Assembly: GCA_028821605.1 (NCBI GenBank)
Contig: JAPPFM010000035.1
Location: 1 to 64,000 of the forward strand
Origin: Candidatus Poribacteria bacterium
GTDB taxonomy: Bacteria > Poribacteria > WGA-4E > WGA-3G
DNA: 64,000 nucleotides
Reading direction: 5' to 3'
In this document: one piece after another, positions 46,795 to 62,292 of the stretch
Position numbering within the stretch: the first letter of the stretch is position 1
Layout of the letters: each line of letters begins with the position of its first letter
Translations under genes and position numbers: made by a program
The notes under the pieces: model-generated
Databases searched by the model: none
The model's input: the letters and a program-made list of their open reading frames with translations, nothing else
What the model was told of the DNA's origin: nothing

Positions 46795-46970
46795 CCTCAG
46801 TTTTCAGTACTCAGTCGCCAGCGGTTGGTGATCAAAAGCCACACGTTAATCCCATAGTCTCTATAATCCTGCAAATCCTAAAATCCTGTAAATCCTGATC
46901 CAGACAATGAACATTTCACATTCATCTACTGACAACTGATAACTGAAGACTGACAACTGACTCCCAAAAA
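46795..46970. repeat. TGACAACTGA-type intergenic repeat
   Basis: The gap begins with TCAGTTTTCAGTACTCAGTCG and ends with CTGACAACTGATAACTGAAGACTGACAACTGA (split here over 46929-46961). Between the arms lie TAATCCTGCAAATCCTAAAATCCTG-like tandem words. It immediately precedes the consensus promoter of the LolA gene. Confidence 0.6.
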
Positions 46971-56701: not shown

Positions 56702-58060
56702 ATGAAGCGCAGAATTTATGGGCTAGAAACTGAATTTGGAATTATTTGGACACCAGATGTCCCGCGTCGAAAGACACTCACTGTTCAGAATGTTGTGATG
56801 TACCTCTTTCGTGAAATTGTTGCGGGGAGAATGTACCCTGATGTCTTCCTTGAGAACGGTGCAAGGTTTTATCAAGATATCGGATGCCATCCGGAGTACG
56901 CAACTCCAGAATGTGATGATGTCACTGAACTTGTTGCCCACGATAAAGCAGGTGAACGCATTATTACGCGCCTCGCCAGTACTGCGGAACGACGCATGCG
57001 TAATGATGGGTTCTATGGAAAGATTTCTATCTTTAAAAATAACTTGGATACTCCCGGAAATACTTATGGCTGCCACGAGAACTACCTCATGGAGCGACAT
57101 GTCGATTTCCGTCAGTTGGCAGGGCAGTTGATCCCCTTTTTTGTCACTCGCCAAGTCTTTGCAGGCGCAGGAAAAATTAAGCCGAGTCATCGCGGGTATT
57201 ATGCCATCTCGCAACGTGCTGAGCATATTCGAGAGGAAATTTCTATCGGCACGACGACAGCACGTGGGATTATCAACACACGCGATGAACCGCATGCTGA
57301 CCGTGAAAAGTACAGACGTTTGCATGTTATCGTCGGAGATTCCAATATGTCCGAATTTTCGACTTTTTTGAAGGTGGGTACAACCGGTATTATCCTCCGT
57401 ATGATTGAAGACAACTTCATTCAGCAACGGTTCGCACTCCGCGATCCGGTCAAAGCAATCCAAGCGATCTCTGATGATACCACCTGTACACACCAGATTG
57501 AACTCCAGAATGGAAAGCGACTCTCCGCTGTCGAGCTGCAGTGGCAGTACTTAGAGTGTGCCAAGCGGTATCTTGAACAGGCTGAATCCGATTCAACAAC
57601 AAACCAAGTGATGGCGCGTTGGGAATACGTCCTTACATGCTTGGAAAGCGATCCGATGCAATTGGACCGGGAGTTAGACTGGGTCATTAAGTGGAAATGG
57701 CTACAAACTTACCTTACGAAACGTGGGTTTGAGTGGGATGCCCCGCAGGTGAAACACCTCGATTTAAAGTACCACAATGTACGTCAGGAGGAAAGTCTCT
57801 ACTACACTCTTGAAAACCGAGCGGAGATCGAGCGGATTGTCAGGGATGAGCAGATTCGGCACGCTGAACAATTCCCACCTGAACGTACACGAGCCAAGTT
57901 CCGAGGTAAGTTTATCAAGAAAGTCAACGAAGGAAAGGTTTTGTGCGGTGTTAACTGGAGTTACATCCAACTTTATGAACCGTACCAAATCCTTTACCTC
58001 TCCACAGATCCATTTAAACCTGAGTTTGACGAAGCAAGTCGAACAATTTATTCAATTTAA
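56702..58060 (+). CDS. pafA: Pup--protein ligase
   Basis: A 452-residue ligase that joins deamidated Pup to substrate lysines with ATP. Motifs: RRIYGLETEFGIIW, ENGARFYQDIGCHPEYATPE with the catalytic Asp region, FKNNLDTPGNTYGCHENYLM, and NTRDEPHADREKYRRLHVIV. It lacks the Dop loop. Length equals that of characterised PafA proteins. GAAGAGG lies upstream of the ATG. Immediately after the stop lies the 15 bp hairpin at 58062-58117. Confidence 0.95.
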   Translation: MKRRIYGLETEFGIIWTPDVPRRKTLTVQNVVMYLFREIVAGRMYPDVFLENGARFYQDIGCHPEYATPECDDVTELVAHDKAGERIITRLASTAERRMRNDGFYGKISIFKNNLDTPGNTYGCHENYLMERHVDFRQLAGQLIPFFVTRQVFAGAGKIKPSHRGYYAISQRAEHIREEISIGTTTARGIINTRDEPHADREKYRRLHVIVGDSNMSEFSTFLKVGTTGIILRMIEDNFIQQRFALRDPVKAIQAISDDTTCTHQIELQNGKRLSAVELQWQYLECAKRYLEQAESDSTTNQVMARWEYVLTCLESDPMQLDRELDWVIKWKWLQTYLTKRGFEWDAPQVKHLDLKYHNVRQEESLYYTLENRAEIERIVRDEQIRHAEQFPPERTRAKFRGKFIKKVNEGKVLCGVNWSYIQLYEPYQILYLSTDPFKPEFDEASRTIYSI

Positions 58061-58061
58061 A

Positions 58062-58117
58062 TTTGACCAAGAACGCAGCTACCGATACTTTTGCTAAGGC
58101 GCGCGTTCTTGGTCAAA
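58062..58117. repeat. Hairpin with conserved loop, copy 1
   Basis: A perfect 15 bp stem, TTTGACCAAGAACGC (58062-58076) and its complement (58103-58117), encloses a 26-base loop. The loop core CTACCGATACTTTTGCTAAG is shared, with two substitutions over 22 bases, with the hairpin at 62237-62292, whose stem is unrelated. It begins one base after the pafA stop. No T-run follows, so it is not a typical terminator. Confidence 0.75.
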
Positions 58118-58205
58118 GTCAGCGGTCAGCAGTCGGCTATCGGTAAGAAGATATCTAGTTTAATCAAAAATCTCTTTAACTGACAACTGACAGCCGACAA
58201 CTAAT
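58118..58205. repeat. TGACAACTGA-type repeat between pafA and ppdK
   Basis: GTCAGCGGTCAGCAGTCGGC at the left and CTGACAACTGACAGCCGACA at the right are imperfect inverted arms. They directly follow the conserved-loop hairpin and end just before the AGGAGG of ppdK. Confidence 0.65.
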
Positions 58206-58220
58206 AATAGGAGGCTTTTG

Positions 58221-60854
58221 ATGCCACAACCAAAGTATGTTTACTTCTTTGGAGGCGGTGAGAGTGAAGGGGATGCCACAATGCGCACCCTGCTCGGTGG
58301 AAAAGGGGCGAATCTCGCAGAGATGAGCAATCTCGGCATACCTGTGCCACCCGGATTCACTATCTCCACTGAGGTTTGCAAATTATACTACGAAAATGAT
58401 AAACGATACCCCGTCGGACTTACCGAACAGATTGACGAGAATCTATCAAAATTAGAAGCCACACTCGGCGCAAAATTCGGTGATACCGAAAACCCACTCC
58501 TCCTTTCTGTCCGTTCTGGTGCCGCAGTCTCAATGCCGGGTATGATGGACACGATTCTCAACCTCGGCTTGAATGACAACGCGGTTAAGGGACTTATCGC
58601 TAGATCCGAAAATGAACGTTTCGCTTACGATTCATACCGCCGCTTCATCCAGATGTTCGGAAACGTTGTCCTCGGTGTCGATCACGACGAATTTGAGCAT
58701 TTACTCGAAGAAAAGAAAAAGTCAAAAGGCGTTACATTAGATACCGAATTAGAAGCCGACGATTTAGAGGCACTCGTCCATGAATTCAAAATTGCCGTCA
58801 AACAGCACACAGGAGATAGTTTCCCTGATAACCCACGTCAACAGTTAGACATGGCACGGGATGCTGTTTTTGAGTCTTCAGGCAACCCCCGTGCGATTAC
58901 CTACCGCCGCCTCAATGATATTTCTGAAGAACTTGGGCGCACCGCGGTTAACGTCCAAGCAATGGTATTCGGAAATATGGGCGGAACCTCCGGATCAGGA
59001 GTCGCCTTCACCCGTAACCCATCTACTGGCGCGAACCAATTTTACGGCGAATTTCTCATTAACGCCCAGGGCGAAGACGTGGTCGCTGGCATCCGCACGC
59101 CCCTTCCCGTCGCCGAATTGAGAAACATTTTGCCCGAGGCGTATAATGAATTGGTCAATATCGGCTTGAGACTTGAGAAACACTACACGGACATGCAAGA
59201 CGTGGAGTTTACTATTCAGGATAGCAAACTCTACATGCTCCAGACCCGTAACGGGAAACGCACCGGTCAGGCTGCTGTTCGCATTGCCGTTGAGATGGTC
59301 GAAGAAGGCTTGATTGATAAGCAGACTGCTTTGACGCGTGTCCCTGCCAATGACTTAGATCAGCTGTTGCATCCAAGTGTTGACCCAGAAGCTAACGTTG
59401 AGATTATCGCGCAAGGCTTGCCGGCCTCTCCAGGTGCAGCTGTTGGCAAAGTTGTCTTTACCGCACTTCACGCCGAAGAGCTCGCAGCCGCAGGAGAGAA
59501 GGTTATCCTCGTTCGTACTGAAACATCACCGGAAGATATCGGTGGCATGGATGCCGCAGAAGGTATCCTCACTGCACGTGGTGGTATGACAAGCCACGCC
59601 GCGGTTGTCGCACGAGGCATGGGAAAATCCTGTGTCGCAGGGTGTTCTGCTCTGTTTATCAATGAAGAAGCATTGGAATTTTACGCAGAGGGGAAACGCT
59701 ACACTGAAGGCGATTATATCACGCTTAACGGATCTACAGGTGATGTGCTTGATGGACAGGTAGCACTGATCCAACCCGAATTGAGTGGACAATTTGGAAC
59801 GCTCATGGAATGGTCAGATGAGGTCCGATCCTTAGGTGTTCGCACGAACGCGGATACACCCGAAGATGCAAAAAATGCCAGACAATTTGGTGCAGAAGGT
59901 ATCGGGCTTTGCCGTACTGAGCACATGTTCTTTGGCACAGGAATTGATGCCATCCGTGAGATGATTCTCGCCGATGACACAGCAGAGCGAGAAGCAGCGT
60001 TGGTGAAACTGTTACCACATCAGCGTTCAGACTTCATCGGCATCTTTGAGGCGATGGCAGGCTATCCAGTTACCATCCGCACCCTTGATCCACCGCTCCA
60101 TGAGTTCTTACCGAAAAATGAATCTGAGATCCTTGAGCTTGCAGAGCGAATCGGTATTGAACCGCAAAAACTTCGTGAGCGCGTTGAAGAATTGCATGAA
60201 TTCAACCCGATGCTTGGGCATCGTGGATGTAGACTCGGTATTGTCTATCCAGAGATAACCGAAATGCAAGCGCGGGCAATCTTTGAAGCCGCTGTTGATG
60301 TCTCAAAACGTGGCATCGCAGTTTTGCCGGAGATTATGATTCCGCTCGTTGGGCATATCAACGAATTATCTTTGCAACGTAAGGTTGTTGTTGACACTGC
60401 GGAAGCCGTTTTTGCAGAGAGCAGGACTCGGGTTGAATACCTCATCGGTACAATGATTGAGCTACCCCGTGCCGCACTTACTGCTGACAGAATCGCTGCC
60501 GAAGCCGAGTTTTTCTCCTACGGCACCAACGATCTCACCCAGACAACATTCGGGATGAGCCGTGATGATGCGGTGAAATTCCTTGATGATTACGTCAGAA
60601 ACGGCGTGCTTGAATACGATCCGTTCCAAGTTCTTGACCAAGATGGTGTCGGCAGTCTCTTGCAAATCGGGGCTGAGAAAGGGCGGGCGACACGTCCCGA
60701 TCTGAAAGTAGGTATCTGTGGTGAACATGGTGGCGAACCGAGTTCCGTGAAGTTCTGCTACGGATTAGGGTTTGATTATGTATCCTGTTCCCCGTTCCGT
60801 GTACCGATTGCTCGTCTCGCCGCAGCACAGGCTGTGATTGAAGACGAAGTTTAG
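58221..60854 (+). CDS. ppdK: Pyruvate, phosphate dikinase
   Basis: An 877-residue enzyme that interconverts pyruvate, ATP and phosphate with phosphoenolpyruvate, AMP and pyrophosphate. Domain order is normal: N-terminal nucleotide domain ([20 protein letters not shown]), swivelling phosphohistidine domain with [18 protein letters not shown], and C-terminal pyruvate domain ending with [13 protein letters not shown], whose Cys is the catalytic acid. The ATG at 58221 is preferred to the TTG before it, since AGGAGG sits six bases upstream. It may serve gluconeogenesis or glycolysis. It is separated from pafA by 160 bases of repeats and is probably a separate transcript. Confidence 0.96.
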
Positions 60855-60880
60855 TCTGGATTTACTCAAATCCGTTTGCT

Positions 60881-60902
60881 GGCGAGGTTTCCTAACCTCG
60901 CC
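60881..60902. terminator. Strong hairpin after ppdK (GGCGAGG family)
   Basis: A perfect 9 bp stem GGCGAGGTT/AACCTCGCC with a 4-base loop lies 27 bases after the ppdK stop. There is no T-run, so it is either a weak terminator or a copy of the dispersed hairpin seen at 2015 and 50236. A degenerate ACCCGGTAAGGGCGGTT just downstream (60918-60935) resembles the palindromes at 24410-24422. Confidence 0.5.
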
Positions 60903-61030
60903 ACTATGATCCAAGACCCGGTAAGGGCGGTTCCTAACTGCACTGAGACTTGAGAGAATCGTTCCGATACTAATTTTTTAACCTTCACACACGTTCAACG
61001 ACCCTCCTAAATGTATCGCGAGGTGAAAAC

Positions 61031-61630
61031 ATGAACGCACAAGAATTTGGCGCATTACCTGCCGACGGAAATCCCGACGCCCTACTCTCGCAAGAAGGAC
61101 TCCCTCCCAAACCCATCAAGATGACATTGGAGGAATTCCTTGAAAGCGATTTAGAGGGATATGAATACATTAAAGGAGAATTAGTGCCTATGCCGCCGAC
61201 ATCAGCGGAACATGGTGATATTAGTGCGGATCTGTTCTGGTTTTTGAATTTGCATGTCCGTGAAAACAAACTTGGACGTGTCTATATGCCAGATACGGGT
61301 TTCCGAGTTGGGGAACGAGTGCTGATGCCAGATGTGGCCTTCGTTTCGACAGATAAACTCCCCGCTGACAGGAGCAAAACCTTTCCAATCCCACCAGATC
61401 TCGCCGTTGAGGTGGTTTCTCGAACAGATATAGAATACCGGATTGAGGAAAAAGCATTTGCCTACCTTGAAGCGGGCACACAATTCGTATGGGTTCTTAA
61501 GCCGCTATCCAAGACAGTGACGGTCTATCGTTCAGAAACAGACATCACGCTGTTCACACGGAATGACACTCTAACTGGTGAAGAGGTTATCCAGGGGTTT
61601 TCTTGTCAAGTAGCAGAATTTTTTGAGTAG
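61031..61630 (+). CDS. Uma2-family endonuclease-like protein
   Basis: A 199-residue protein of the Uma2/DUF820 family, a PD-(D/E)XK-fold group very expanded in cyanobacteria and other environmental phyla. Core residues: YIKGELVPMPPTSAEHGDIS, VLMPDVAFVS with the Asp, and PPDLAVEVVSRTD with the Glu. The usual ExK Lys is less clear, replaced by a nearby EKAFAYLEAG. Its biological target is unknown; some are thought to be linked to mobile DNA. The ATG at 61031 follows GAGGTGAAAAC. Confidence 0.85.
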   Translation: MNAQEFGALPADGNPDALLSQEGLPPKPIKMTLEEFLESDLEGYEYIKGELVPMPPTSAEHGDISADLFWFLNLHVRENKLGRVYMPDTGFRVGERVLMPDVAFVSTDKLPADRSKTFPIPPDLAVEVVSRTDIEYRIEEKAFAYLEAGTQFVWVLKPLSKTVTVYRSETDITLFTRNDTLTGEEVIQGFSCQVAEFFE

Positions 61631-61672
61631 TGTTCCCAGAAAAAAGACCTGTTTCTTTAGAAAGGACAATAT

Positions 61673-62116
61673 ATGCTAATCGCAGATTTAAATGAAATTG
61701 AAGGACGCACCTATCCTGCCCGTAGACGCACCAAAAACCTCGTCGGCGGCGCGTCCCCGATCCAGATAGGTGAATTCTGCATGGGGTTCGTCGTCTTAGA
61801 GCCAAACGGTGGACAAGTGCCGTGGCACAACCACGAACAGGAAGAGATCTACTTCATCGTTGAAGGCGAAGGCGAAATGTGCCTCGGTGAAGAGCGTCAA
61901 GTGCTGTCCACAGGTCAGACCGTTTTTATTCCGTCATGGGTCTTCCACCAATTGACGAACACCAGCGATACACCGATGAAGATGGTCTACTGCTATGGAC
62001 CCGCGGGCGATGTGGCGCATTGGAAACAAGAACTCGCTGGCACACTCCCGAAAGCCGGTGTCGAGGCACCACCACTCCCAGAAGGCGCAGCACCTCAATG
62101 CACTGACAAACCTTAA
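61673..62116 (+). CDS. Cupin-domain protein
   Basis: A 147-residue single-domain cupin. Motif 1 is WHNHEQEEIYFIVEGEGEM with the metal ligands His, His and Glu; motif 2 is FIPSWVFHQLTNTSDTPM with the last His. Such proteins bind a metal and a small acid or sugar and act as isomerases, dioxygenases or sensors; which is not evident here. AAAGGAC lies before the ATG. It is 42 bases after the Uma2 gene and upstream of a Gfo/Idh/MocA gene, which could fit sugar metabolism. Confidence 0.85.
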   Translation: MLIADLNEIEGRTYPARRRTKNLVGGASPIQIGEFCMGFVVLEPNGGQVPWHNHEQEEIYFIVEGEGEMCLGEERQVLSTGQTVFIPSWVFHQLTNTSDTPMKMVYCYGPAGDVAHWKQELAGTLPKAGVEAPPLPEGAAPQCTDKP

Positions 62117-62236
62117 GAATGGTTGTCAGTCGTCGGTTGTCGGTTATCGGCAGAAAGACGCTTTTGTAACAATCTCCCCCAGTTTGAAGTCCTTTGGGAA
62201 GTAGTGAATCGTTACAAACCCCTCTTAACCGAGAAC
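62117..62236. repeat. TGACAACTGA-type repeat after the cupin gene
   Basis: TTGTCAGTCGTCGGTTGTCG at the left is followed by CTTTTGTAACAATC, CCCCAGTTTGAAGT and, near the right end, CGTTACAAACCCCTCTTAACC. TTTGTAAC and GTTACAAA form an inner inverted repeat. The middle matches the mpa-dop repeat. The conserved-loop hairpin follows directly. Confidence 0.65.
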
Positions 62237-62292
62237 TTTAACCATCAACTCGTCTACAGATACTTTTGCTAAAGCACGAGTTGATGGTTAAA
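62237..62292. repeat. Hairpin with conserved loop, copy 2
   Basis: A perfect 16 bp stem, TTTAACCATCAACTCG (62237-62252) and its complement (62277-62292), encloses a 24-base loop with the core CTACAGATACTTTTGCTAAA. The loop is shared with the hairpin after pafA; the stem is not. It lies 27 bases before the Gfo/Idh/MocA gene start. Confidence 0.75.

Follow-up and report, generated by a model that had tools for sequence, protein, structure and literature searches.

The DNA analyzed here is a 64,000-nucleotide stretch (the window) of contig JAPPFM010000035.1 from a Candidatus Poribacteria bacterium (GCA_028821605.1), in which two hairpins lie at 58062-58117 and 62237-62292, as a first-pass annotation had reported. 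The stem at site 1 comprised the 15 perfect pairs given there (58062-58076 with 58103-58117), while the stem at site 2, given as 16 bp, was found to have 17 pairs (62237-62253 with 62276-62292). Each hairpin holds one copy, on the + strand, of a 54-nt palindromic element. Copy 1 (TTGACC...GGTCAA, 58063..58116, 77 bits) is a divergent stem variant with a 15-nt 5' arm (58063..58077, last nucleotide unpaired), a 24-nt loop of type A (58078..58101), and a 15-nt 3' arm (58102..58116, first nucleotide unpaired). It starts 2 nt past the stop codon of a Pup-ligase gene (56702-58060), and the gene downstream of it encodes pyruvate phosphate dikinase. Copy 2 (TTAACC...GGTTAA, 62238..62291, 90.3 bits) is placed between AACT and AACC and has 15-nt arms at 62238..62252 and 62277..62291 around a 24-nt loop, also of type A (62253..62276). 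On its two sides are a cupin gene and a Gfo/Idh/MocA oxidoreductase gene, and it ends 27 nt before the ATG of the latter (62319).

With up to three mismatches allowed, the loop core was matched in the window at these two sites and nowhere besides, where no match was expected (100 shuffles). When the + strand was folded as RNA, z scores of -5.24 (site 1) and -8.22 (site 2) were obtained, each better than 200 of 200 shuffles. The stems had been described as unrelated and sharing no sequence; however, TTTGACCAAGAACGC and TTTAACCATCAACTC are alike at 11 of 15 positions by direct reading, and both hairpins were found by a single covariance model whose source copies include these two. The description of the hairpins as adjoining TGACAACTGA-type repeats was fair: TGACAACTGA occurs at 58181-58190, about 65 bases past hairpin 1, and a heptamer-like tract (TTTAACTGACAACTGACAGCCGACAACTA) occupies 58175..58203 on the + strand downstream of copy 1. 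The flanks of site 2 are AACT and AACCGATAACT, with heptamers in the opposite orientation about 90-115 bases upstream, in a heptamer-like tract at 62121..62150 on the - strand (+ strand: GGTTGTCAGTCGTCGGTTGTCGGTTATCGG).

The same annotation had held that chance or local duplication would be favored by a loop that occurs nowhere else or lacks paired arms at its other copies. Instead, a search of the own genome with the loop pattern at up to three mismatches returned 27 matches (14 forward and 13 reverse), compared to two for a reversed control, and 26 of the 27 were surrounded by paired arms. These 26 were used in the covariance model, from which L024, a copy with a broken arm, was left out (loci and genomes are referred to by our numbers, prefixed L and G). 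The model gave 103 two-strand matches in the own genome, corresponding to 53 loci, a lower bound because 150 of 3,164 candidates were scored. Loop A and a score of at least 70 bits were found at 27 of the 53 loci. The other 26 were weaker: one is L024, most of the others examined share the stem but carry another loop, chiefly CTCCGWTATAAATGTTAARGC, and a few are divergent or truncated, with C18:55778 left unexamined. The unit is 54 bp long: TTRACCAWSAACTCG and its complement form a stem of 15 bp, which encloses an asymmetric loop (about 22-24 nt) of one of several types. Searching for the arm alone returned 101 matches in the own genome and, among about 100 of them listed, nearly all were paired within one hairpin. 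No parent insertion sequence was seen, single arms not having been followed by gene searches.

The range of the family was determined among 84 genomes of the phylum (E-value 0.001, with stricter filters that lose weak matches). It was found in 34 of the 38 genomes of the window's genus, two of them by a single weak match, and in none of the other 46; the element-free members of the genus at this threshold were G055, G056, G068, and G073. The exact loop pattern had 25 matches in genome_contigs, all from Poribacteria (the window's own records possibly excluded), and no match was found among viral contigs, plasmids, and phages with the exact pattern or with copy 2 alone. Only two copies occur in the window, as would be allowed if the likeness were due to chance or one hairpin had been duplicated locally, but that explanation is refuted by the 53 loci on many contigs and the matches in 34 genomes, and we give it practically no credence. 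For comparisons across genomes, 137 of 159 candidates were kept, each of them matching in the arms at 11 or more of 15 positions. The 22 dropped included chance matches as well as real but shifted or damaged copies (e.g., L024, L043, L064, L120, L122, L139, L140, L142, L177, and L345). The kept set provided 116 distinct loop-A copies, with L060 and L327, a single record, counted once; these include orthologues from several genomes and are not all independent. Four of the dropped loop-B copies (L139, L140, L142, and L177) share a 25-nt insert in the 5' arm (GCGAAGAAACACCCAAGCAAAAACC, with one substitution in L142), and this variant has apparently multiplied itself.

Orthologous regions were compared at the two window sites (30 loci each) and at three copies within coding sequence (30, 2, and 30 loci). 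At site 1, the hairpin was present in the own genome alone, and the intergenic region of G075 has a loop-B copy at another position (L196). Similarly, a copy at the exact place of site 2 was found only in the own genome; in G075, the other side of this intergenic region carries a loop-A copy in the opposite orientation (L225). In addition, L229 and L230, whose upstream gene is a different one, have another copy in common at the end of that gene, and L234 has one about 1.4 kb upstream. The first-pass annotation had suggested a small element whose insertion copies neighboring DNA in inverted orientation. Such filled and empty orthologous sites support an inserting element, but none of the empty sites seen contained either arm; the arms are part of the element, and inverted copying was rejected.

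At five orthologous sites, 54 bases (written [54]) were found where relatives have three. CGCT[54]GTGTAG in L280 corresponds to CGCT-ATC-GTGTAG in L272, and TACT[54]AACCGAC in L287 to TACT-GAC-AACCGAC in L289, with a three-base gap in six of the seven aligned rows listed in each case. The element in L026 (AATC[54]AGTC) faces ACTC-TAT-AGTG in L285, where the single row has this gap. In L010, the element at 182 (TTTT[54]GTAGG) faces TTCT-GGC-GTAGC in L298, with a three-base gap in four of four rows, placed at the junction or one base off and accompanied by further gaps nearby in three of them. Finally, CACCAC[54]AAGCAG in L229 and L230 was aligned by eye with CACCAC-GAC-AAGCAG in L240. No sign of a target duplication was observed at these five sites: the four bases before the element are unlike the four after it, and any such duplication would have had to be lost by mutation.

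The matched arms showed strong covariation. In a test of the named structure, 30 cells with two-sided change were counted, compared to 10.0 in shuffles, and the structure surpassed 500 of 500 shuffles in percent paired, in pairs and cells with two-sided change, and in covariation score. In further pair types, its value was reached by 66 of 500 shuffles. Among the 116 loop-A copies, stem position 3 was G-C in 81, A-T in 34, and mismatched in one; position 8 was A-T in 87 and T-A in 29 and was never unpaired; position 9 was C-G in 69, G-C in 40, and mismatched in seven.

The annotation had also offered a structured RNA with compensatory change. Such an RNA could be a small RNA or a regulator acting in cis, with compensatory mutation preserving its stem. 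The covariation proved real, the RNA folds are good, and many copies are intergenic, some of them near start codons. Selection on an RNA, however, is disfavored because a bias toward G-U would be expected on the RNA strand, yet wobble-compatible mismatches were balanced in these partly related copies: the loop strand had 25 and the opposite strand 24 (15 were of other kinds). Moreover, orthologous copies in 12 groups differed by 12 one-sided and five two-sided changes. These are small counts, in which two of the five two-sided changes come from L330/L029, a copy cluster that is possibly mispaired, and two from L256/L267, a site possibly hit twice. The presence of a copy at a given site varies between species, copies occur inside open frames in both orientations, and the four matches to Rfam between 57000 and 63500 of the window were weak and below the gathering score. 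We therefore regard RNA function as highly improbable; the excess of one-sided changes and the balance of wobbles fit element subfamilies better. The simplest reading of the covariation is of subfamilies whose arms were matched during copying, by a route that we infer. One clear two-sided change at an orthologous site (L002/L321) suggests that arm matching can also happen in a resident copy.

Some copies of the element lie inside housekeeping genes without breaking the reading frame. For 15 of the 116 loop-A copies, the surrounding frame was open over 50 codons or more in both directions, always in phase 0, with 11 copies in one orientation and four in the other; the corresponding figure for loop-B copies, which are 53 nt long, was zero of 20, a difference too small to weigh alone. 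The consensus has stops in its other two phases by direct reading. An inserted copy adds 51 bp net and has one open reading phase per strand, which allows copies to sit inside genes. Five of the 15 coding copies were in TlyA-like genes of different genomes. Protein translations were read for 11 of the 15 and separately for four TlyA-like ones, with one gene family represented in both sets. Ten host proteins were scanned and include FtsJ/S4 (TlyA-like), FG-GAP/ASPIC, RecD2-like helicase, Ham1, lactamase-fold, and TPR proteins; two had no Pfam match, and the Ham1 and FtsJ models each matched in two stretches.

The surroundings of the element pointed to its landing ground. Among the 116 loop-A copies, 115 are preceded by a T or C and 112 are followed by an A or G. 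In 76 copies, AACY precedes the element and AAC follows it, which is the frame of TAACTGA-type heptamers. Arrays of three AACYGAY units were found in 50 of the 84 genomes, including all 38 of the genus (six to 171 matches each), and were sparse in the 12 others; a reversed control gave none in most genomes and at most six (G055). The four element-free genomes of the genus hold 19, 20, 61, and 50 matches to the pattern, so the arrays do not need the element. The heptamer is the same as that of the TAACTGA repeats, which according to passages in MacGregor (2015; PMC4679880) occur both between and inside genes. That article covers Beggiatoaceae, one Chromatiaceae, Cyanobacteria, and Bacteroidetes, the string "Poribacteri" being absent from its main text, and our literature search for heptamer repeats in Poribacteria found no paper. 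Here, such arrays are the landing ground and are distinct from the element itself.

These arrays also raise the explanation that copies spread passively, by homologous recombination or gene conversion between arrays instead of transposition, which the AACY/AAC flanks and the occurrence of arrays throughout the genus would favor. However, no array was seen at the junctions in L280, L026, L229/L230, and L010 (element at 182), which leaves recombination without an array partner there, and the four element-free genomes do hold arrays. We judge passive spread to be very unlikely.

Examples of arrays in the window are at 58175-58203, 62121-62150, and 46930-46960. Arrays are often oppositely oriented at the two ends of an intergenic region, and inside genes they are also read through as coding sequence. 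Other small inverted repeats, of the GATTTTTTCGCAGAAAAAATCGTACTGA and CTCTCACTGCGAGGCA types, were observed within arrays in the upstream regions of L200, L207, L208, L210, and L212 and in L006. A different, intergenic hairpin type, with the core GGTTTCYTAACC and a varying outer stem, was found at 60886-60897 of the window and in L228, L237, and L244; this core had four matches in the window at up to one mismatch, compared to 0.44 expected.

Repetitive extragenic palindromic (REP) sequences and the REP doublets forming hairpins (REPINs) are linked to REP-associated tyrosine transposases (RAYTs) of the Y1 type, and an element of this kind, moved by a RAYT acting at a distance, was considered. 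Two Y1_Tnp genes are present in the own genome, one of which (L174:2885-3430, - strand; PF01797, 30.7 bits) is presumably RAYT-like and has no good element arm nearby. Y1 matches were found in 37 of the 38 genomes of the genus. REPINs likewise have inverted, hairpin-forming arms with compensatory changes, and their movement in trans has been proposed, according to parts of PMC3116915. Nevertheless, an arm with zero to one mismatch was absent from all 46 Y1 loci (L144-L175 and L180-L193, with flanks of about 1.5-3 kb, some shorter; the own genome is included and one gene was fetched twice), where scattered arm matches had two to three mismatches, and a RAYT linkage of the element was rejected on this ground. 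The Y1 matches extend to the four element-free genomes. In the copies listed, neither GTAG nor CGTC stands as a tag at the outer end of the stem, the outer flanks being AACY/AAC or unrelated; these motifs appeared solely on the inner side, where the stem borders loop A, and were absent from the loop-B consensus. Also counted against this explanation is that the IS200/IS605 mechanism is not known to include the loss of three target bases. Membership among REP and REPIN sequences, from which the element also differs in having one long stem, fails on Y1 linkage and the outer tag, and mobilization by a distant RAYT is unlikely.

Other known systems were compared by size and description. Rickettsia palindromic elements (RPEs) are palindromic, multicopy, limited to one bacterial group, and located inside conserved protein genes with the frame kept, according to passages in PMC2229807, PMC10969869, and PMC3767692; a palindromic element in frame inside protein genes is what was found here for the 15 coding copies. 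An excerpt of PMC3733652 assigns RPEs to the CGTC repeats, which apparently lack a dedicated transposase. In the portions of these accounts that concern Rickettsia and Wolbachia, RPEs measure 105-146, 100-150, or about 150 bp, and target duplication is given as "?", whereas the Poribacteria element has 54 bp, a three-base exchange, and heptamer-type flanks. Bacterial miniature inverted-repeat transposable elements (MITEs) are likewise short and non-autonomous with inverted repeats, but most MITE-like elements duplicate their target (part of PMC2229807). Membership there fails on target duplication, which was absent from the five sites and is undecidable in heptamer arrays. Integron attC sites have extrahelical stem bases and an integrase, whereas the stems here are without bulges (an integrase was not searched for). 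The small dispersed repeats (SDRs) of Nostoc and its relatives (Elhai et al., 2008) are reportedly very small, share a common fold with compensatory changes, and often lie within tandem heptamers. They are said to be 21-27 nt long and cyanobacterial. No published account of a palindromic element of Poribacteria was recognized by title among the literature matches listed.

Taken with the empty sites and the matched arms, the hairpins are most probably copies of a family of non-autonomous, palindromic mobile DNA elements, resembling RPEs and REPINs but not assigned to either, which has apparently spread through one genus of uncultured Poribacteria by replacing three bases at a time. The element would move as a unit and replace three target bases, preceded by a pyrimidine and mostly followed by a purine, with no target duplication, and the AACYGAY arrays (TAACTGA-type) would supply many of the targets. 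The three bases may be exchanged in one insertion event by an enzyme acting in trans, and the arms may be matched when the element is copied, by way of a single-stranded or fold-back intermediate. A function for the host is unneeded to explain the data, and we think that none exists.

Several observations weigh against this reading. Within heptamer arrays, a loss of 3 bp and a duplication of 4 bp (AACY) are indistinguishable, and an exact YGAYAAC heptamer on either strand was within 30 nt of only 61 of the 116 copies. Site 1 is a weak test, as about half of its 11 rows show a three-base gap at most two bases from the junction and the others do not, and site 2 has no clean empty site. More broadly, 67 of the 81 copies compared met mainly loci holding the same copy. 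In the other 14, the commonest gap was three bases for six copies, zero for six (including L229 and L230, where the aligner set the gap elsewhere), 12 for one, and 10 for one. The loop-B copy L055 had a three-base gap in four of six rows, which are related repeats whose orthology is not established. Few identical copies exist at different places, with one sequence occurring twice among 41 own copies and three occurring twice among 20 of G075. No mobilizing gene was found in the comparison with the 46 Y1 loci, and no excision or insertion event was observed.

It is possible, though doubtful, that the exchange of a trinucleotide for a hairpin represents a distinct chemistry, in which a fixed number of three target bases is lost and none duplicated, length and phase suit genes, and the arms are re-copied in each cycle. 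We know of no described transposition chemistry with such an outcome, the literature not having been searched on this point. Related genomes offer many filled and empty sites, by which both the enzyme and the mechanism are open to direct test. On the proposed reading, the covariation of hairpins in a genome can stem from element subfamilies instead of RNA function. If this reading is true, the genus would harbor, within the housekeeping genes of these uncultured bacteria, a mobile element of very small size whose target exchange is both exact and unusual.

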